The position numbers were made by a program, and so were the translations under genes. Positions 2,590 to 43,353 of a stretch of 44,698 nt of DNA are shown here, one piece after another. The stretch's first letter is position 1. Each line of letters opens with the position of its first letter. The stretch comes from Microbacteriaceae bacterium (lineage in GTDB: Bacteria; Actinomycetota; Actinomycetes; Actinomycetales; Microbacteriaceae), in contig JAODAT010000091.1 in assembly GCA_025463565.1 (NCBI GenBank), positions 1 to 44,698 on the forward strand, given 5' to 3'. The notes below the pieces were generated by a model. It worked only from the letters and a program-made list of their open reading frames with translations. It did no database searches and was not told the DNA's origin.

Positions 2590-2656
2590 GCGGGTCGAGC
2601 TTGTCGAGACCTCACTGACGTGGTTCGTCGGTGAGATTTCGACAAGCTCAATCCGC
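2590..2656. repeat. Palindromic element copy 1 (map/trmD junction)
   Basis: Left arm 2590-2615 is the consensus form. Right arm 2631-2656 has several substitutions. It begins right after the map stop and overlaps the 3' end of convergent trmD, whose TGA lies within the right arm. A bidirectional terminator role is plausible. Confidence 0.85.
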
Positions 2657-3358: not shown

Positions 3359-4000
3359 CTACTCCGGCGCTTCGGCGGTGGGCAGTTGCTCGGCAGGCAG
3401 CTCGTCGTCGGCCGGCTCGTCGGGCAGCTCCTCGAAGAGTCCGGCGGGAGGCGTGACCGTGAGGGTGCCGGCGGCGACATCCACGGCCGGCACGATGGCC
3501 TTGACGAACGGCACCAGCACTTCGCCGGTCGCGGTCTGCACGTGCAGGAGATCCTGCGCGGGGAGGTGATCGACGAGGGTCACCATTCCCACCTCGACGC
3601 CGTCACGCAGCACACGGAGGCCGACCAACTGGCTGTCGTACCAGGCGTCTTCCTCGTCGGAGGGCGCATCGGTGTCGTCGTCGATCCAGAGGATGGCCTT
3701 GATGAGCGACTCGGCTGCCGAACGGTCGTTGATGTTCTTGAAGAACGCGACCGGGTGCGAGTTGTACCACTTGAGTTCGGCGAGTTCGAGTGTCTTGCCG
3801 TGCCACGGCGACTCGGTGGGCACCTGCAGGCGGTACACGGCGCCCGGAACGAATCGTCGTTCCGGGGCATCCGTGTACAGCTCGATCTTTATTGCGCCCT
3901 TGAGGCCGTGTGGCTTGGTGAGCCGCGCGACGCGCAGCCCATCCGGTGAACTTAGATCAGAAATCGGTGTCCACCACGTCGACTCGCACGCGTTTGCCAT
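3359..4000 (-). CDS. rimM: 16S rRNA processing protein RimM
   Basis: Chaperone-like factor for assembly of the 30S head. The N-terminal RimM motif reads RVARLTKPHGLKGAIK, and a PRC-barrel-like half follows (DAWYDSQLVGLRVL...DLLHVQ...VPFVKAIVPAVDV). The C-terminus ends in an acidic, proline-rich tail (about 30 residues). The start is uncertain. The only ATG in frame is at 4000 and overlaps the KH gene by 44 bp, giving a leader unlike the family (MANACESTWW). No GTG or TTG lies between it and the conserved region, so either this overlap is real or a rare start (CTG or ATT) after 3957 is used. Confidence 0.92.
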   Translation of the reverse strand: MANACESTWWTPISDLSSPDGLRVARLTKPHGLKGAIKIELYTDAPERRFVPGAVYRLQVPTESPWHGKTLELAELKWYNSHPVAFFKNINDRSAAESLIKAILWIDDDTDAPSDEEDAWYDSQLVGLRVLRDGVEVGMVTLVDHLPAQDLLHVQTATGEVLVPFVKAIVPAVDVAAGTLTVTPPAGLFEELPDEPADDELPAEQLPTAEAPE

Positions 4001-12000: not shown

Positions 12001-12068
12001 GCGGGTCGAGCCTGTCGAGACCTCACCGACGAGATAGCACCGGTGAGGTCTCGACAGGCTCGACCCGC
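12001..12068. repeat. Palindromic element copy 2, perfect 28-bp arms
   Basis: Arms 12001-12028 and 12041-12068 are exact reverse complements around a 12-nt loop. This is the most symmetric copy in the window. It starts at the base after the reductase stop and ends 2 nt before the -10 box of the next gene, so it may separate the two transcription units. Confidence 0.9.
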
Positions 12069-15501: not shown

Positions 15502-15625
15502 AGCGGATCAAGCTTGTCGAGTGGGCCCACGCGGCGCAGACCGGACGATTCGAAGAATCGGCAGGCGGCACCGTGGGGACTCACCAACGAACTGCGCGGG
15601 TGAGGTCTCGACAAGCTCGACCCGC
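15502..15625. repeat. Palindromic element copy 3, left arm interrupted
   Basis: The outer part of the left arm (15502-15521) and the complete right arm (15600-15625) are recognisable. Between the outer and inner parts of the left arm (inner part near 15578-15585) lie about 55 bp absent from other copies. That insert holds the palindromes GTGGGCCCAC (15521-15530) and CGATTC-gaa-GAATCG (about 15546-15560). The element sits between the convergent GH13 and smc genes; the smc stop directly abuts the right arm. Confidence 0.75.
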
Positions 15626-18600
15626 CTAAGCAGACGTGCCGACGCGCTGGCCCACCACGGCGCTGATGCCGTCGGCGCGCATCGAGACGCCGTACAGCGC
15701 ATCCGCGATCTCCATGGTGCGCTTCTGGTGGGTGATCACGATGAGCTGTGACGACTGGCGCAGGTCTTCGAAGATCGTGAGCAGTCGGCCGAGGTTGGCG
15801 TCGTCGAGCGCCGCCTCCACCTCGTCCATGATGTAGAACGGGCTGGGGCGCGCCTTGAAGATGGCGATCAGCAGCGCGACGGCGGCCAGGCTCCGCTCGC
15901 CACCACTCAGCAGCGACAGCCGCTCGATCTTCTTGCCGGCCGGCTTCACGCTCACCTCGATGCCGGTGGTGAGCATGTTCTCCGGGTCGGTGAGATGGAT
16001 GCTGCCGGTACCCCCCGGGAACAGCACCGGAAACACGAGGTTGAAGGCCGCACGCGTGTCTTCGAACGCGCTCGAGAAGATGTCCTGCATCTTCTCGTCG
16101 ATCTCCTCGATGATCGACAGCAGGTCGCGTCGGGTGTCAGTGAGGTCGGTGAGCTGCTCGGTGAGGAACTTGTGGCGCTGCTCGAGCGCCGCGAACTCCT
16201 CGAGTGCGAGCGGGTTGACCCGGCCGAGCTGGCCGAGCTTGCGCTCGGCGCGCGCGAGGCGTGCCTGTTGCTGCTCTCGGTTGAACGGGACGGTCGCGAT
16301 AGAGGTCTCGACGAGCTCGACCCGCTCTTGCACCTCGACCCGCTCTTGCGACTCATCCACGGGCACCGGCACCTCTGGCCCGTACTCGGCCACGAGCACA
16401 TCCTCGACGAGACCCAGCTCTTCGCCCGCGCGCTCGAGCAGCGTAGACAGGTGGAGCTTCTTCTCGTAGACCTGCATCTCGAGCCCGTGCACGCTCTCGC
16501 TGACCGCGAAGAGCCGTTCGCGCAGGCTGTTCTCGCCACGACGCAGTTCCGCGAGTTCCTCGTTCTGCGCCGAGCGCTCCGCCTCGCGCGCGGTCAGCGC
16601 GACCCGCGCCTCCGAGACCGACCGGTCGACCGCATCCAAAACCGCGGGCAGCGCGGCGATCACCGATTCCGCCGACGCGACCTGGCGACGGCGGATGACG
16701 GCACGACGGGCGGCCTCCTCGGCGGCGACACGATCCGCCTGCAGCTGGCGCTCGAGCTGTTCGGCGCGCAGCTGCTCCGCACGAACCCGCTCGCGTGCCG
16801 TCTCCACCTGCAGCCGGGCCTCGACCTCGGTCTCGCGCGCCCGTTCGAGGTCGGCGAGCACGCCGTCGCGTGCGGCGACATCGAGGATGGGCCGGGGGCG
16901 CGAGGCGGCCTCGTCGAGTTCGCGACGGGCGTTCTCGTTCGCCGCAGCGGCATCCGTGACGGCCTCTTCGGCGAGCGCGAGTCCGCGTTCGAGGCGCTCG
17001 GCTTCGGCCTGCGCCGCCTCGACCTGCACGCGCACCCGGTTGAGTTTCTCGGTTTGCGCGGCGAGCCGTGAATCGAACTCGCGCAGCGCGGTGAGCGCGG
17101 CACTCGAGTGTTCCTTTGCAACCTCGAGGCGGCCGCGCTGCTCGGCGAGTGCGAATCGGGCCCGGTCGATGAGGGCGGTGACCGCGCCATGGCGATCGTT
17201 CGCGGCATCGCGATCAGCGACGAGTTCGAGGCGGGAGCGCTTGGCGCCGGAGCCGCCGCGGAGCACCCAGCGCGAGAGCACGTCGCCGGACTTTGTTATC
17301 ACTGTCGAGTCGGTGCCGTCCAGGCTGTGCCTGTCGAGTTCGGGCCACGCGGCCCTGGCCGCGGCCAGGTCGTCGGCGATGAACACCGCGTCGAGCAGGG
17401 AGAGCACACCGTCGGGCGCGGTGACGACACTGGACGCCGCGACGACACCCTTCGCGCTGACGGTTGCCGCGCTTCGTCGGCCCTCAGCGATGACGATCTC
17501 GACCCGGCCGAAGTCGCTCGCGCCGGACTTCTCGATGGCGTCGAAGGCGGCATCCCGGTTGTCCGCGAGCACGGCGTCGGCGAGCGAGCCGAGCGCAGCG
17601 GCGATCGCCGCCTCGAAACCGGGCTGCACCTGCACATGCTCCGCGACGAGGCCCCGGATGCCCGCGAGTCGAGCGGAGACCAGGGCGCTCGAGCCGTCCT
17701 TCTGGTCGAGCGCCAGGGAGAGCGCACCCGTTCGCGCTGCCAGCGCGTCGCGCTCGCGTTCGTGGGTGTGCAGTTCCTCACGCAGCCGCTCGATCTCGGC
17801 CTCCGCTGCAGTCACCTCGGCCTGAGCCGCTTCGTAGGCAGCATCGAGGTCGGTGTCGCCCGAGTCGCTCAGTGCGGCTTCCGCCTCCAGCGAGGTGAAC
17901 TCGGCCTGCACTGTCGATCGTCGATCGCGTGCGGCGTCGATCGCGTTCTGCTGGCGAAGCACCTCGCCGCGCACTGCCGCAAGGCGGGAGGCCGCGGTCT
18001 CAGCTTGCCCGGTCAGCTTCGAGATCTCGAGGTCGTGACGGGAGACGAGCGAGGACTGGTACGCGATCTGCTCGTCGAGGCCGTCGAGGTTGGCGCGCGC
18101 GACGGCCGTCGACGCCTGCGACTCCTGCCACGCCGACTCCGTCTCGACCACGAGCTCGCCGAGGCGGGTCACCTCCTCGCGCGCGTCATCCACCATCTGG
18201 CGGGTCACCGCCTGACCGGAGGCCTGCGTGTCGGGCTGCTGCCCGAGCAGGGCAAGCCGCTGGTTGGCGAGCGTGTACAGGCCGCGCAGGCGTTCCTGCA
18301 CCGACTCCAGACCGAACGCTGTACGCCGGGCGATGTCGACGGCGTCTCCGACCTGGGCCTGCTCGATGCGCGCCTCGCGGAGCTTGTTCTGGTCGAGCTG
18401 CTCCTGCAGCACGATGCGCTCCGTCTTGCGCTCGCTCTCGCTGCGGCTCGACGCTGTGATGGCGGTGCGCAGCTCGACGACCTCGTCGGCGAGAAGCCGG
18501 GCCCGGGCATCCCGCACGATCGCGGCGATCGACTGCGCCTCTTTCGCGATCTCGGCCTGCTGGCCGAGCGGCTTCAACTGGCGACGGATCTCGCCCGCGA

Positions 18601-20302: not shown

Positions 20303-20369
20303 GCGGGTCGAGCTCGTCGAGACCTCACCGACGTAATTCGCTGGTGAGGTCTCGACGGGCTCGACCCGC
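20303..20369. repeat. Palindromic element copy 4 (GNAT / secreted protein)
   Basis: Left arm 20303-20328 and right arm 20344-20369, nearly perfect. It lies between the stops of two convergent genes (20301 on plus, 20378 on minus), consistent with use as a bidirectional terminator. Confidence 0.88.
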
Positions 20370-23047: not shown

Positions 23048-24158
23048 TGAATGCCGCCGTGTCTTCGGCCGAGTCCGTCACGAACACCAGGTCGTTGTAG
23101 GGGCCCGCCTCGGTGCGCAAGGCGCCCGCGAGCGTGTCCCAGCGTTCCGTGCCGAGGAAGACCATCGGGCTCTGGTAGGCGAAGGTCGAGTAGTAGTTCT
23201 GGGCGGCATCCTGGAAGATCTCCTGAACGGTTCCCGCCGCACCGTCGGCGAAGATGATGCCCGCCAGGCTGATGGCGAGCAGGCCGTCCTCCCGGATGCT
23301 GTTGGCGAAATACTTCGCGATGCCAGACGCGAACAGGCTGGTCTTCTCGAAGCCGTAGAACCAGGTCGGGATCGACAGCGTATACGTGCCGTGCGGATAC
23401 TTCCTCAGCACCTCGCGCGCCCGGGACTGGTAGTCGGGGTGTGCGACCGTCGGGGCGTTCCGCAGGGTCGCCAGCGCGTCGTTCAGGGCGTCGGGGCCGA
23501 AGGGCGCGAGGTAGGCGCCCAGGTTGCCGGCCTCCATGATGCCAGGGCCGCCGCCGGTAACCACCAGGTGATCGCGGCCGAGGTCGAGCGCGGCGCGGGC
23601 GGCGCTCTCGTAGGCGGGAGCATCCCGGCTCACATCGTGACCGCCCATGATGCCGACGATGCTCTTCTCGAGCCGTTTCTGCACGGTGTCGCCGATCACG
23701 TCGGCGAGCGCCTCATCGATCGAGAAATCGTGGGTGCGCTGCGCGAGCGCCTCCCCCACGTCGGGCAGGTAGCTGCCGCCGGCCGAGTACCAGTCGTAGA
23801 TCATCTCGTCGAGGGTCTTCCGGGTGCCGAACCACTCGACCTCGGCGTCCAGTTCCTCGGCGGAGTAGAGGGTGCGCCGGTAGGGGTCGTACGGCCGTTT
23901 CGAGAACGGCGGGAAGACCAAGGCGCCGCGGGCACCGAGCTCATCCGTGACGCCGGGCGGCAGCGTGCAGCCGAGAAAGAGCGCGCCGTCGACCTTGAGC
24001 GTCGCCCAGTCCACCTTCCAGTGGGTGAGGTCGAGGTTGTGCACGGCGATGTCGCAGAGATCGGGCTCGCGAGCCACCAGGGCCTCGAGCGTCTCGATCT
24101 CGCGGATGTTGCGCCGCCGCGGCGGCTCTTTCATGACTCGCTGCTCGATGGCGCTCAC
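23016..24158 (-). CDS. LOG-family Rossmann-fold protein
   Basis: A 380-residue protein of the LOG / putative lysine decarboxylase family. The nucleotide-binding motif GGGPGIMEAGN is intact, but the usual second motif PGGxGTxxE reads DGAAGTVQE here. Many LOG proteins are cytokinin-type nucleoside-monophosphate phosphoribohydrolases; this longer form has an N-terminal extension of about 120 residues (LCDIAVHNLDLTHWKVDWA...) and its reaction is uncertain. The GTG start at 24158 overlaps the mutM stop (GTGA), so translation is coupled. An ATG nine codons later is an alternative. Confidence 0.85.
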   Translation of the reverse strand: MSAIEQRVMKEPPRRRNIREIETLEALVAREPDLCDIAVHNLDLTHWKVDWATLKVDGALFLGCTLPPGVTDELGARGALVFPPFSKRPYDPYRRTLYSAEELDAEVEWFGTRKTLDEMIYDWYSAGGSYLPDVGEALAQRTHDFSIDEALADVIGDTVQKRLEKSIVGIMGGHDVSRDAPAYESAARAALDLGRDHLVVTGGGPGIMEAGNLGAYLAPFGPDALNDALATLRNAPTVAHPDYQSRAREVLRKYPHGTYTLSIPTWFYGFEKTSLFASGIAKYFANSIREDGLLAISLAGIIFADGAAGTVQEIFQDAAQNYYSTFAYQSPMVFLGTERWDTLAGALRTEAGPYNDLVFVTDSAEDTAAFIRSHPPRTAG

Positions 24159-25111
24159 ACGCGAATCCTCTGGCAGAAGGGGCAGTAGTGGCTCCCGCGG
24201 TTCATGAACTGGTCGCGCACGATCGGGCGGCCGCAGCGCGGGCACGCCTCACCCTGCTGGCCGTAGGCGTTCAGCGAGTGCGAGAAGTAGCCGGAGGCGC
24301 CGTTGACGTTCACGTACTGAGCATCGAAACTGGTGCCGCCCTCGGCGAGCGCCTTGCCGAGCACCAGCCGCACCTCGGCAAGAAGAGTCTTGGCGCGCGG
24401 CAGGCTGAGGGATGCCGTCGGCTGGTCGTAGTGCACGCGCGCGGCCCAGAGGGCTTCGTCCGCGTAGATGTTGCCGATGCCGCTCACCAGCGTCTGGTCG
24501 AGCAGGGCACGCTTGATGCCGGTCCTGCGTTTGGCGAGGATGTCGAAGAATCGTCGGTCGTCGAAGGCGGGGTCGAGCGGGTCGCGGGCGATGTGCGCGA
24601 CCTGGGCCGGAACGAGCGCCGAGTCGGAGCCGAGTCCGGCCGCGCGACCGTCCGCCGTCGGCACGAGGTCATCGATCGCCATGGACCCGAAGATGCGCTG
24701 ATCGACGAAATCGAGCCGCACCGGCCCGTCTTCGGCGGTGTCAAGCAGCAGCCGGATGCGCAGCAGCGGGTCGTCGGGCTGGCTCTCGTCGCGCAGCAGC
24801 ACCTGCCCGCTCATGCCGAGGTGGATGACCAATGCGTACAGGCGGGTCGAGCTTGTCGAGACCTCACCAGCGCGGTTCGTCGGTGGGGTCTCGACAAGCT
24901 CGACCCGCTCTAGCGGCAGCCAGAGGAACTTGCCGCGGCGCACCGCGCCACCGAGAGTCGCGCCGGTGAGCCGCTCGACGAAATCCTCGCTCGGTCCTAC
25001 GTGGCGGCGCAGCGAGCGTCCCTCGCGCACTTCGACCGATCGCACGACGGCGCCGGTGACCACCGGTTCGAGCCCGGATCGCACCACCTCGACCTCGGGG
25101 AGCTCAGGCAC
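24155..25111 (-). CDS. mutM: Formamidopyrimidine-DNA glycosylase carrying an in-frame palindromic element
   Basis: Base-excision repair glycosylase/lyase for 8-oxoguanine and formamidopyrimidines. The N-terminus PELPEVEVV after GTG supplies catalytic Pro and Glu, and K61 in RRGKFLWLPL is the family lysine. HLGMSGQ and the H2TH region (GIGNIYADEALW) are present, and the C-terminal zinc finger has four cysteines (CPRCG...YCPFC). The 318-residue length is slightly long because residues about 68-91 are encoded by a complete palindromic element (RVELVETPPTNRAGEVSTSS...), inserted in the loop between FLWLPL and the ALVIHLGMSG strand. All catalytic motifs remain intact. The start GTG 25111 overlaps the rnc end by 8 bp. 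Confidence 0.95.
   Translation of the reverse strand: MPELPEVEVVRSGLEPVVTGAVVRSVEVREGRSLRRHVGPSEDFVERLTGATLGGAVRRGKFLWLPLERVELVETPPTNRAGEVSTSSTRLYALVIHLGMSGQVLLRDESQPDDPLLRIRLLLDTAEDGPVRLDFVDQRIFGSMAIDDLVPTADGRAAGLGSDSALVPAQVAHIARDPLDPAFDDRRFFDILAKRRTGIKRALLDQTLVSGIGNIYADEALWAARVHYDQPTASLSLPRAKTLLAEVRLVLGKALAEGGTSFDAQYVNVNGASGYFSHSLNAYGQQGEACPRCGRPIVRDQFMNRGSHYCPFCQRIRV
24842..24908. repeat. Palindromic element copy 5, inside mutM
   Basis: Left arm 24842-24867 and right arm 24883-24908, both close to consensus. It is read on minus as an in-frame peptide in MutM, and no stop codon arises. Confidence 0.92.
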
Positions 25112-26619: not shown

Positions 26620-26671
26620 CCCGGCCACGGCAGGCGCGCGGCCGTCGTTCGCCTGCGGCGCACCCGTCGCT

Positions 26672-26789
26672 CCAACTACCTCGTGGCGGGAGATACGCCA
26701 CCTCGCGGCGGCCGTACCTCACGGCGGGAGATACGCCACCTCGCGGCGCCGTAACTACCTCGTGGCGGGAGATACGCCACCTCGCGGCG
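26672..26789. repeat. Three tandem repeats of about 39 bp, each able to form a small hairpin
   Basis: Units lie at 26672-26710, 26711-26748 and 26749-26789, sharing GGCGGGAGATACGCCACCTC and ending GCGGCG. In units 1 and 3, GTGGCG and CGCCAC flank the loop GGAGATA. A fourth degenerate unit may follow to about 26830. They lie in the 348-bp gene-free stretch between DUF177 and the aminotransferase gene. Confidence 0.85.
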
Positions 26790-26861: not shown

Positions 26862-26935
26862 CGACCCCGCCGACACAGTCCGGCACACCGACGCAGTCCG
26901 ACCCCGCCGACACAGTCTGACCTGACTACGCAGTC
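26862..26935. repeat. Second repeat family: CCGAC(A/G)CAGTCYG units
   Basis: A 21-nt unit beginning CGACCCCGCCGACACAGTC occurs at 26862-26882 and 26899-26919. Shorter related units ACGCAGTCCG lie between and after them. It is distinct from the preceding 39-bp repeats. No coding signal is seen. Confidence 0.7.
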
Positions 26936-29334: not shown

Positions 29335-29404
29335 GCGGGTCGAGCTTGTCGAGACCTCACTAACGAGATACTTCGCGGGTGAGGTCTCGACAAGCTCGAC
29401 CCGC
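29335..29404. repeat. Palindromic element copy 6 (hydA / LLM)
   Basis: Left arm 29335-29360 and right arm 29379-29404. Flanking bases extend the symmetry (TTAA(A)GCGGG ... CCCGCTTAA). It lies between two genes of one operon, 9 bp after the hydA stop on minus. Confidence 0.92.
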
Positions 29405-30864: not shown

Positions 30865-30933
30865 GCGGGTCGCGCGTGTCGAGACCTCACTGAGGAGTTT
30901 TTCGCGGGAGAGGTCTCGACACGCTCGACCCGC
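30865..30933. repeat. Palindromic element copy 7 (nitrilase / hydA)
   Basis: Left arm 30865-30890 (variant GCGGGTCGCGCGTGTCGAGA) and right arm 30908-30933, loop about 17 nt. The outer TTAAGCGGG ... CCCGCTTA symmetry is retained. It lies between the nitrilase stop (30943) and the hydA SD. Confidence 0.88.
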
Positions 30934-42077: not shown

Positions 42078-43353
42078 GTTCGTCGGCTCCAGTCGGTTGT
42101 TCCGACGGTAGCCCGACCGAGTTCTCTGCCGGTTGCTCTGCTGGTGGCCGTGTCGGGTGGGTCTCTGACACAGTGGGCGGGGGCACCCAGCCCGCGGGTG
42201 GCGGTGGTCCCTGCGGAAGGTGTCTCGCGGGTGCGAAACGTTGTTTCGGCGGCCGTATGCCGGCCTGCACGGCGGCTCGTCTGGCGACCGCCAGCCACAC
42301 GAAGGGCAGGCCGATCGCGATGCCGACCTGCAGCGCGTAGCACAGCAGTGTGACGATGCCGATGACCGCGGGCGGTGCGTGCCCGCGTAGCGGGGTCGTT
42401 CCGAACCCGAGGACGTCCCACAGGCTGTGGGCACCGACGACGGCGAGGAAGGTGCCGACCAGTGGTATCGAGAGGCGATATCGGCCGTTTCGGCTGGCGG
42501 CGAACAGCATGCCTCCGAGCAGCGCGGTGAACACGGGATGCAGCAGCGGCGTGATGACGGTACGCAGGCTGAGTGTGTAGATCACGGAACCCAGTTGGCT
42601 GAAGTTGTAGCCGGGATACTCCCACGCGTTGACCAGGTATTGCAGGTTCTCGGTTGCGGCGAACCCGAGACCGACCGCACCGCCGAGGAAGAGGCCACCC
42701 CGCAGCGTCTTCGTTCGGACGCCGAGCCCGAACAGCAGCACCGTCAGCCCTTTCAGCGTTTCTTCGACCGGACCCGCGAAGAGCGCCGACACGGGTGTCG
42801 CCAGGCCGCCCAACACGATCGAGTGCAGTGTCAGTACCCAATGCTGGATCTGGCTCTCCGCCTGTGCGGCCGCGAAGGTGGCCACGAACGCGGCGGCGGC
42901 AAGAGCGGCGAACAGGCGAGGAATGGTGACCGCGTCTCCGACCCGAACGCGGTAGAGCATCGTGTAGAACACGCAGGTCGCGGCGAGGATCGCTCCGAGC
43001 GCGAGCGAGAGCACGGGAAGAGAACGGTAGTTCGTTCCCTGGGGAACCACGACCGCGTCGTAGGTGAGATACGTGGCGAGAATGAGCCCGCCGATGAGCA
43101 GGATCCACCAACCACCGCGCGGACCCAGCCACCGTCTCGGTGCCTTTGCGGCAGGCGCTTGTGCGGTGGGTGCCTTTGGCGTCGGTGCTTCCGCGGTCGG
43201 TGCTTCCGCGGTCGGTGCTTTCGCGGTCGGTGCTTTCGCGGTCGGTGCTTCCGCAGTCGGTGCTTTCGCCGTTGGAGGTTCTACCGTCACCGCGTTGTGC
43301 AGCACTGCTCGCCCGTGCTGGTCGGCAGCGCGCAGCGCCTGGTCGTCGGTCAC
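42067..43353 (-). CDS. PrsW-family intramembrane protease with pentapeptide-repeat N-terminus
   Basis: A 428-residue multi-pass membrane protein with glutamic-type PrsW motifs: AGPVEETLKG (EE and K), FAATENLQYL, TPLLHPVFTALLG and AHSLWDVLG. About eight to nine helices are predicted between residues 80 and 370. Residues about 25-72 are nine units of APTAK/APTAE type, and the C-terminal 65 residues are Pro-rich. PrsW proteins cleave membrane proteins such as anti-sigma factors; the target here is unknown. The start GTG at 43353 lies exactly 6 nt after TAGCAT (43365-43360). Confidence 0.9.
   Translation of the reverse strand: MTDDQALRAADQHGRAVLHNAVTVEPPTAKAPTAEAPTAKAPTAKAPTAEAPTAEAPTPKAPTAQAPAAKAPRRWLGPRGGWWILLIGGLILATYLTYDAVVVPQGTNYRSLPVLSLALGAILAATCVFYTMLYRVRVGDAVTIPRLFAALAAAAFVATFAAAQAESQIQHWVLTLHSIVLGGLATPVSALFAGPVEETLKGLTVLLFGLGVRTKTLRGGLFLGGAVGLGFAATENLQYLVNAWEYPGYNFSQLGSVIYTLSLRTVITPLLHPVFTALLGGMLFAASRNGRYRLSIPLVGTFLAVVGAHSLWDVLGFGTTPLRGHAPPAVIGIVTLLCYALQVGIAIGLPFVWLAVARRAAVQAGIRPPKQRFAPARHLPQGPPPPAGWVPPPTVSETHPTRPPAEQPAENSVGLPSEQPTGADEPTP
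43144..43278. repeat. 15-bp tandem repeat encoding APTAK/E units
   Basis: About nine imperfect copies of GCGGTCGGTGCTTTC or GCGGTCGGTGCTTCC in frame in the PrsW-type gene. Several neighbouring units are identical, so copy number may vary between strains. Confidence 0.85.

Follow-up and report, generated by a model that had tools for sequence, protein, structure and literature searches.

The mutM (fpg) gene of an actinobacterium of the family Microbacteriaceae contains, in frame, a complete copy of a palindromic repeat (family A) that is dispersed over the genome of its host. Very probably, a dimer of this repeat entered mutM after the lineage had split from its relatives and survived there in a tolerant, repeatedly colonised turn of the protein, with MutM most likely still working. 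The gene lies in the window, by which is meant the whole analysed stretch of 44,698 nt. The window belongs to a MAG (G000), one assembly of the species, which is 88% complete, consists of 162 contigs and is placed near Lacisediminihabitans by its MutM relatives. Two things are added here to an earlier note on the same DNA: the MutM turn looks like a place where such repeats have landed repeatedly, and no fewer than five further genes hold the element in frame.

The earlier note had described a complete palindromic element in frame in mutM, and its coordinates are exact: the element has 67 nt and encodes the 22 residues R69-R90. The sequence, GCGGGTCGAGCTTGTCGAGACC...GGTCTCGACAAGCTCGACCCGC, is an inverted repeat read in the minus-strand frame, where it is flanked by FLWLPLE and LYALVIHLGMSG and accounts for 22 of the 318 residues. 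When it is folded together with a few flanking bases, the predicted energy is -60.2 kcal/mol, compared with a mean of -25.2 for shuffled sequences (z -11.2), and none of 200 shuffles is as good. Each arm contains a 19-nt unit, GGTC-TCGACAAGCTC-GACC, and element A is most naturally read as two such REP-like units joined head to head, with TCGACAAGCTC as the heart of the unit. A single unit forms a weak hairpin of -2.7 kcal/mol, with an outer stem of 4 bp. The features of the window, together with the full in-frame copies found elsewhere in the genome, are collected in Table 1.

Table 1. Copies and parts of element A in the window, with the mutM gene and the in-frame copies in other genes
Feature	Position	Strand	Remark
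mutM (fpg) CDS	24158..25111	-	318 codons; GTG start at 25111; stop codon just past the end
Element A, complete, 67-nt class	24842..24908	.	near-perfect inverted repeat; MutM R69-R90
Left arm of the mutM element (REP-like unit)	24842..24863	-	0 mismatches to the 22-nt arm
Right arm of the mutM element (REP-like unit)	24887..24908	+	the two arms lie head to head; 0 mismatches
Element A, full copy	2590..2656	.	aligned stretch
Element A, full copy, 68-nt class	12001..12068	.	aligned stretch
Element A, partial	15580..15627	.	single right arm and interior; aligned stretch
Element A, single arm in smc	16304..16325	.	read in frame as ERVELVETS; SMC_N (Pfam)
Element A, full copy	20303..20369	.	aligned stretch
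Element A, full copy, 70-nt class	29335..29404	.	
Element A, full copy, 69-nt class	30865..30933	.	
In-frame full copies of element A, other loci			recG (L011), hrpA (L188), lysA (two, L198), lhr (two, L206), purH (L009)

That the unit has a paired outer stem is seen at the G000 loci searched, where 92 of 103 units combine the heart TCGACA(A/G)GCTC with fully paired outer 4-mers. The pair GGTC/GACC accounts for 80 units, and GATT/AATC, CCCT/AGGG and CGCT/AGCG occur as well. Paired stems are found around the heart also in G011 (5/5 units), G018 (3/4) and G215 (7/13, with GGTT/AACC). When the stem partners are shuffled, 7.9 paired units are expected in G215 against 7 observed, and 69 in G000 against 92. 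Since shuffling changes little where one type of pair dominates, it is the variety of paired types, and not their count, that supports the stem. The heart alone is not diagnostic, since in the 80 mutM loci taken from genome contigs only 1 of 11 hearts has a paired stem, with 0 of 5 and 1 of 10 for a control heart. The outer flanks of the copies are rich in TTAA, TAGA and TAAA, and TAA, TAG or TGA is present in 62 of 120 outer 4-mers, a count taken in any frame and with no control. The enriched TTAA and TAGA look like part of the element.

In the window, eight stretches align in register with element A, and six of them are full copies. In the 3.12-Mb genome, the arm is matched 203 times with at most one mismatch and the full palindrome 60 times exactly, with no match of the reversed control pattern in either case. 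Looser matching over the stretches examined gives 60 distinct full copies, a different count that equals the number of exact palindromes by coincidence: 28 are 67 nt long, 6 are 68, 22 are 69, 3 are 70 and 1 is 82 nt. Rfam at its gathering thresholds finds no match in the window. The window holds other repeats too. A second kind is a 46-nt unit that looks hairpin-forming (CCTCGTGGCGGGAGATACGCCACCTCG); it occurs three times in near-tandem at 26665-26789 and is followed at 26862-26935 by a 37-nt repeat in two copies. Further on, 15-nt repeats stand in tandem at 43137-43286, with seven overlapping register copies.

Among 249 genomes of the family, the arm TYTCGACAAGCTCRACC is present in 39, with the reversed control matching once in each of two genomes. 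The distribution is very uneven, with 111 matches in G215, 106 in G000, 35 in G098, 18 in G081 and 15 in G018. In G081 (C1:147561-147667) and G215 (C1:396963-397075), arms with TCGACAAGCTC form clusters in which they run in the same direction, about 29-38 nt apart, and these are not palindromic dimers. Palindromes of the A pattern were also seen in 17 other genomes of 120, and were set aside as chance-like, with interiors mostly unrelated to A; in G071, two of five such palindromes have A-like interiors.

The turn in which the mutM copy lies is variable in length among relatives. The 111 mutM loci, some of which yielded no loop with the pattern used, give 101 distinct loops, the window's own included, with a median of 15 residues, and 29 of the 101 have at least 24. 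Some of the long ones, for instance that of L037, are simple tandem repeats. One could thus imagine that the loop of the window grew by ordinary slippage or drift, and that its likeness to the dispersed repeat reflects chance or convergence. However, both mutM arms agree with the genome-wide arm at every position over 22 nt, a pattern whose reversed control has no match in the genome. By this exact match of both arms the explanation is already refuted, and practically no probability can be left to it.

The gene that received the element appears intact. The domains Fapy_DNA_glyco, H2TH and zf-FPG_IleRS are all found with Pfam. When 28 MutM proteins are aligned, PELPEV at the N terminus and the positions K61, M100, N214, R305, C290, C293 and C310 prove invariant and C313 nearly so, which means that the four zinc cysteines are kept. 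These positions serve in catalysis, DNA contact and zinc binding, and the statement of the earlier note that the catalytic and zinc residues remain is borne out by the alignment. It is true that a 67-nt foreign element within mutM could mark a pseudogene on its way out. Nevertheless, the frame is open throughout, none of the conserved positions for catalysis, DNA contact or zinc binding has been lost and the MutM fold is predicted with a Z score of 22.1, so that the pseudogene reading is largely refuted and must be regarded as extremely improbable.

The AlphaFold model of the protein has a mean pLDDT of 81 and a pTM of 0.78, and its best match with VIA-align is the MutM structure 2f5q (rmsd 3.6 over 253 residues). 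The pLDDT falls below 50 in two places, namely residues 1-9 with the catalytic N terminus and residues 264-275. The element is modelled as the turn of a beta-hairpin between the strands 62-68 and 92-97, with a pLDDT of about 57-65. On the question of exposure, which the earlier note had proposed to check with a structural model, the insert lies in a low-confidence and presumably exposed turn. K61 and M100 are at the far ends of the two flanking strands, so that, judged from strand order, the residues that contact DNA and the insert should face in different directions; the insert probably adds a floppy surface loop. With an open frame, conserved positions, Fpg domains and the predicted MutM fold, the suggestion of a functional enzyme with a surface loop stands as probable: MutM would most likely still work as an 8-oxoguanine/Fapy glycosylase.

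The peptide of the full element is present in no MutM loop other than the window's own among the 101 distinct loops from the 111 loci, and accordingly none of the relatives carries the same peptide without the element, which the earlier note had named as evidence against an insertion. The loop of L135 (G018) contains EPLVEPAETP, which by eye resembles half of the A peptide. Other palindromes are nevertheless found in the same place. Of the 29 long loops, 11, one of them the window's own with A, contain an inverted repeat longer than in any of 20 shuffles, and the other 18 contain none of this kind; two of the 11 (L139 and L267) come from the near-identical genomes G004 and G010. The palindromes other than A can be assigned to three families that sit in frame in the same turn. 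Family B (AAAACGCAGGA...TCCTGCGTTTT) is found in seven loops (L127, L128, L130, L139, L140, L141 and L267) from genomes G005, G007, G001, G004, G008, G009 and G010; family C (CGGAAATTCAGGA) in L142 (G002) and, in another genus, L134 (G034); and family D (CCGAAAATGAAGGAGA) in L053, the weakest case, where 14 pairs compare with at most 12 among the shuffles. The arms of B, C and D look alike and may, to judge by their sequences, form one super-family. The loops of G003 and G012 resemble, by eye, half-deleted B copies.

Like A, families B and C are dispersed repeats: of 15 genomes searched, 10 have between 4 and 37 matches to their arms, with no match of the control, and the arms are absent from G000, G006, G011, G012 and G018. 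Among the B and C copies collected as L156-L185, the length is 80-82 nt in 25 of the 28 loci with paired arms, some being one copy seen twice, and the arms are conserved while the interiors are very variable.

The order of events can in part be read from a tree of three proteins, in which G000 is sister to G011 (support 0.942, or 0.758 with MutM alone) and both are then joined by G009, a bearer of B (0.946). G001, which has B, and G002, which has C, are sisters with 0.996 on three proteins and 0.976 on MutM alone, and several deeper supports are low (0.07-0.35). Since both closest relatives examined, G011 and G009, are without A, A entered mutM after the splits from them. The loop of G011 is short, with 13 residues and no visible remnant of an element. 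The loop of the window has 30 residues, of which 22 come from the element, so that the net gain compared with G011 is only 17, and from this follows that A was not simply added to a loop like that of G011. The idea in the earlier note that relatives would date the insertion thus works only in part: A is absent from the two closest relatives examined, yet in many of the remaining genomes of the genus the turn is occupied by a different palindrome rather than being an empty site.

These data may be read in another way, namely that a single ancestral palindromic insert in the MutM turn has changed along with the repeat family of each genome, by concerted evolution or gene conversion. The sister genomes G001 and G002 do have different families at the same site, the arms are conserved while the interiors vary, and the same alternative was raised for RPE-4/6/7 in the paper on Rickettsia japonica (PMC3767692). 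Against it, A and B have no visible arm sequence in common and differ in length, the loop in the sister of the A-bearing G000 is short and shows no remnant, and neither G000 nor G011 has B arms. The pair G001 and G002 is, moreover, a weak witness, since the hrpA pieces of the two genomes (L264 and L253) have identical linker DNA and proteins identical over 250 of 250 residues, while MutM is identical at 258 of 288, and the two bins may be cross-contaminated. One common insert is thus unlikely to account for both A and B. The ancestor of the genus may already have had B, and A in mutM is a later, separate event in the lineage of G000. Much of the B pattern could go back to one ancestral insertion of B that later diverged, which leaves the number of independent insertions uncertain; the only clearly separate insertions in the turn are A on one side and B/C on the other. 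Taken as sequences, then, the loops make the MutM turn look like a recurrent landing place for hairpin repeats.

Element A is not confined to mutM. Eight of the 60 full copies are in frame in six genes supported by Pfam, namely mutM, recG, hrpA, lhr, lysA and purH, one of the two copies in lysA being at the C terminus. Frames span 45 of 83 full or single-arm elements, and there are 66 spanning frames in all. From these, 34 proteins were scanned, and 15 have a Pfam family; since the scan covered 34 proteins of the 66 frames, the eight copies are a lower bound. A GH3 case (L191), where the element precedes the domain, was excluded from the count. Scoring of the flanks by codon usage was dropped, as it did not tell the strands apart and called the two sides of mutM differently. 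In alignments with PDB sequences, lysA is split cleanly at the element and hrpA has gaps there, while the recG element and the first lhr copy are weakly aligned, with gaps.

All eight in-gene copies are entered in the same frame, of RVELVE type. The seven of 67 nt stay in this frame, and their peptides finish with GEVSTSSTR or something very similar; for the 68-nt copy in lhr the ending is GLDKLDP. The 67-nt class makes up 7 of the 8 in-gene copies and 21 of the 52 others (Fisher p 0.016). The choice of frame is not forced by stop codons, since other frames are open as well: over the 67-nt class, the three frames are open in 11, 42 and 49 of 56 cases, with 42 for the RVELVE type. The RVELVE-type frame accounts for 42 of the 102 open readings, and the chance that seven of seven copies fall in it is about 0.002, which suggests that the other peptides, above all the one rich in arginine, are selected against.

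Degenerate or single-arm traces of A in the RVELVE-type frame are found in smc (window position 16304), dnaX (L013), mfd (L218), a DUF3516 helicase (L223), hrpA again (L188), an AcrB-type transporter (L012) and the N terminus of an aminotransferase (L015); an Arg/Ser frame is used instead by the traces in L217, an AMP-binding enzyme, and in L210, close to where scpB starts. The clamp-loader gene dnaX of G000 (L013:281-2248) has three REP units, all in frame: one A arm (KRVEPVETS) and two units of E type (PSTGSG and PSTSSG). In lhr (L206:1326-5975), the two full in-frame copies are accompanied by a degenerate arm at 3972.

That different families use one site is seen also in recG, the linker of which has A in G000 and family E (CCTGAGCTTGTCGAAGGG...CTTCGACAGGCTCAG) in G011, where E is dispersed with 17 arm matches and none for the control. 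A and E are related units, since they have the heart TCGACAAGCTC in common. Ten further full recG linkers of 37-77 residues show no element by eye, and the linker of G001, cut by a contig end, starts with ELVEAPTSASS and resembles half of E. Reuse of the same site is not general, since no element is seen in the hrpA linker of any of 13 further genomes; these linkers are plain and acidic, with 36-42 residues compared with 49 in G000, which thus gains only 7-13. As the net gains in mutM (17) and hrpA (7-13) are smaller than the 22 residues of the element, old loop residues were lost or the insertions were not clean, and part of the old hrpA linker is, by comparison with these relatives, probably lost in G000.

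The list of genes invites the thought that the loop is itself selected, in the sense that the peptide or the mRNA hairpin tunes the activity or expression of MutM, for example with a mutator effect, and that elements are kept for this reason. Genes of repair and replication do recur, with mutM, recG and lhr and with partial copies in smc, mfd and dnaX, and repair genes recur also in a survey of intragenic REPs whose authors suggest mutator effects as a possibility (PMC3733652). Yet lysA and purH are decorated too, and the sample of genes is small, with a category picked after it had been seen; the idea is quite improbable.

Regarding the way in which A moves, the Y1/RAYT transposase family PF01797 has no member in 15 genomes of the genus and its neighbours, the 88% complete G000 included, while 5 of 14 controls are positive. 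A RAYT/Y1 mover was rejected on this ground, PF01797 being the family searched for. Nor is there a sign of target duplication among direct repeats of 2-8 nt, which flank the copies no more often than they do in re-paired flanks (4 nt: 5 of 60 copies against 6 in the control; 5 nt: 0 against 0).

Element A behaves like an RPE in being a high-copy dispersed palindrome that is in frame in several unrelated conserved genes, with one favoured frame. A favoured reading frame is also a property of RPE-1. The palindromic elements of Rickettsia (RPE) and Wolbachia (WPE) are described as dispersed and in frame in conserved genes, RPEs being at solvent-exposed places of proteins (PMC10969869, PMC2229807, PMC3767692). 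A guanylate kinase with an RPE insert is reported to have stayed active with changed substrate affinity (PMC2229807). Different RPE groups occupy the same gene sites in Rickettsia, where a hot spot was weighed against a common origin, and the latter was favoured for RPE-4/6/7 (PMC3767692). The likeness of A to RPEs is one of behaviour and is drawn from their descriptions: A has 67-70 nt and an actinobacterial host, whereas RPEs have 105-146 nt (PMC2229807) and an intracellular alphaproteobacterial one.

In build, A resembles the REPs of the GTAG and CGTC super-families, which the survey describes as short palindromic units, mostly head-to-head dimers and mostly intergenic or near gene ends, with GTAG termini that often supply stop codons. 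Within genes, REPs are found there in variable number and in several species, more than half of them as dimers or groups that encode 20-30 residues; genes of DNA synthesis, replication and repair are prominent among the bearers, and recB of two Xanthomonas species has different REPs at about the same site (PMC3733652). A has in common with them the short palindromic units in head-to-head dimers, the location of some within genes and the repair genes among its hosts. It differs by its actinobacterial host, the heart TCGACAAGCTC, the 4-bp outer stem and the lack of a Y1 transposase hit. Of the 120 outer 4-mers of A only 2 are GTAG, unlike in the GTAG super-family, the inner ends being checked for CGTC only. 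Of the 120 inner ends 42 have CGTC, and GG mostly comes next in place of an AT-led stem; the unit described for the CGTC super-family has a terminal CGTC, a stem of 8-9 bp that begins with AT, a loop of 4-5 nt and a CCA-like tail (PMC3733652). MITEs such as ERIC and Correia/NEMIS are likewise small inverted repeats of a non-autonomous kind, which may become fused to a gene in frame (PMC2229807, PMC10969869); unlike a MITE, A has no target-site duplication above control and no parent transposon was found with PF01797, the one family sought. Since intragenic REPs and RPEs are in print (PMC3733652 for the former), the kind is already known, and A is an actinobacterial case of it, a protein-coding repeat of REP/RPE type. 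The word Actinobacteria has no match in the main text of PMC3733652, and a literature search by title and abstract found no report of such elements in Actinobacteria or Microbacteriaceae.

The preferred account, then, is the following. A head-to-head, REP-like dimer of family A, a family that would be spread by an enzyme, would have entered mutM after the lineage had split from the closest relatives examined. It would have survived there because it lies in the turn of a surface beta-hairpin, keeps the frame and is read in the frame that gives the Glu/Thr/Ser/Val peptide. The turn would be a tolerant site, colonised more than once, by A here and by B, C and D in related species, and its reuse would come from this tolerance, perhaps aided by breakage at an older hairpin and capture of a new one. 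A more speculative extension, possible but doubtful, is that certain turns and linkers of repair proteins, such as the MutM turn and the linker of the RecG helicase, serve permanently as docking sites for different REP families, with loops that may tune repair and, through it, the rate of mutation. An older hairpin would then break and be lost or be replaced by the REP family now active in that genome, and from species to species the same enzymes of repair would display whichever repeat is current.

The interesting part of these results is the reuse of one MutM loop by different repeat families. They add an independent case of such repeats in genes of repair and replication, a pattern that earlier authors found hard to call fortuitous. 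The question of a hot spot versus one ancient, diverged insert, familiar from RPE-4/6/7 and from recB of Xanthomonas, can now be tested on a tree, as protein-coding palindromic repeats are now at hand in a genus of actinobacteria that offers more than one species and more than one family of repeats for comparison at a single site.
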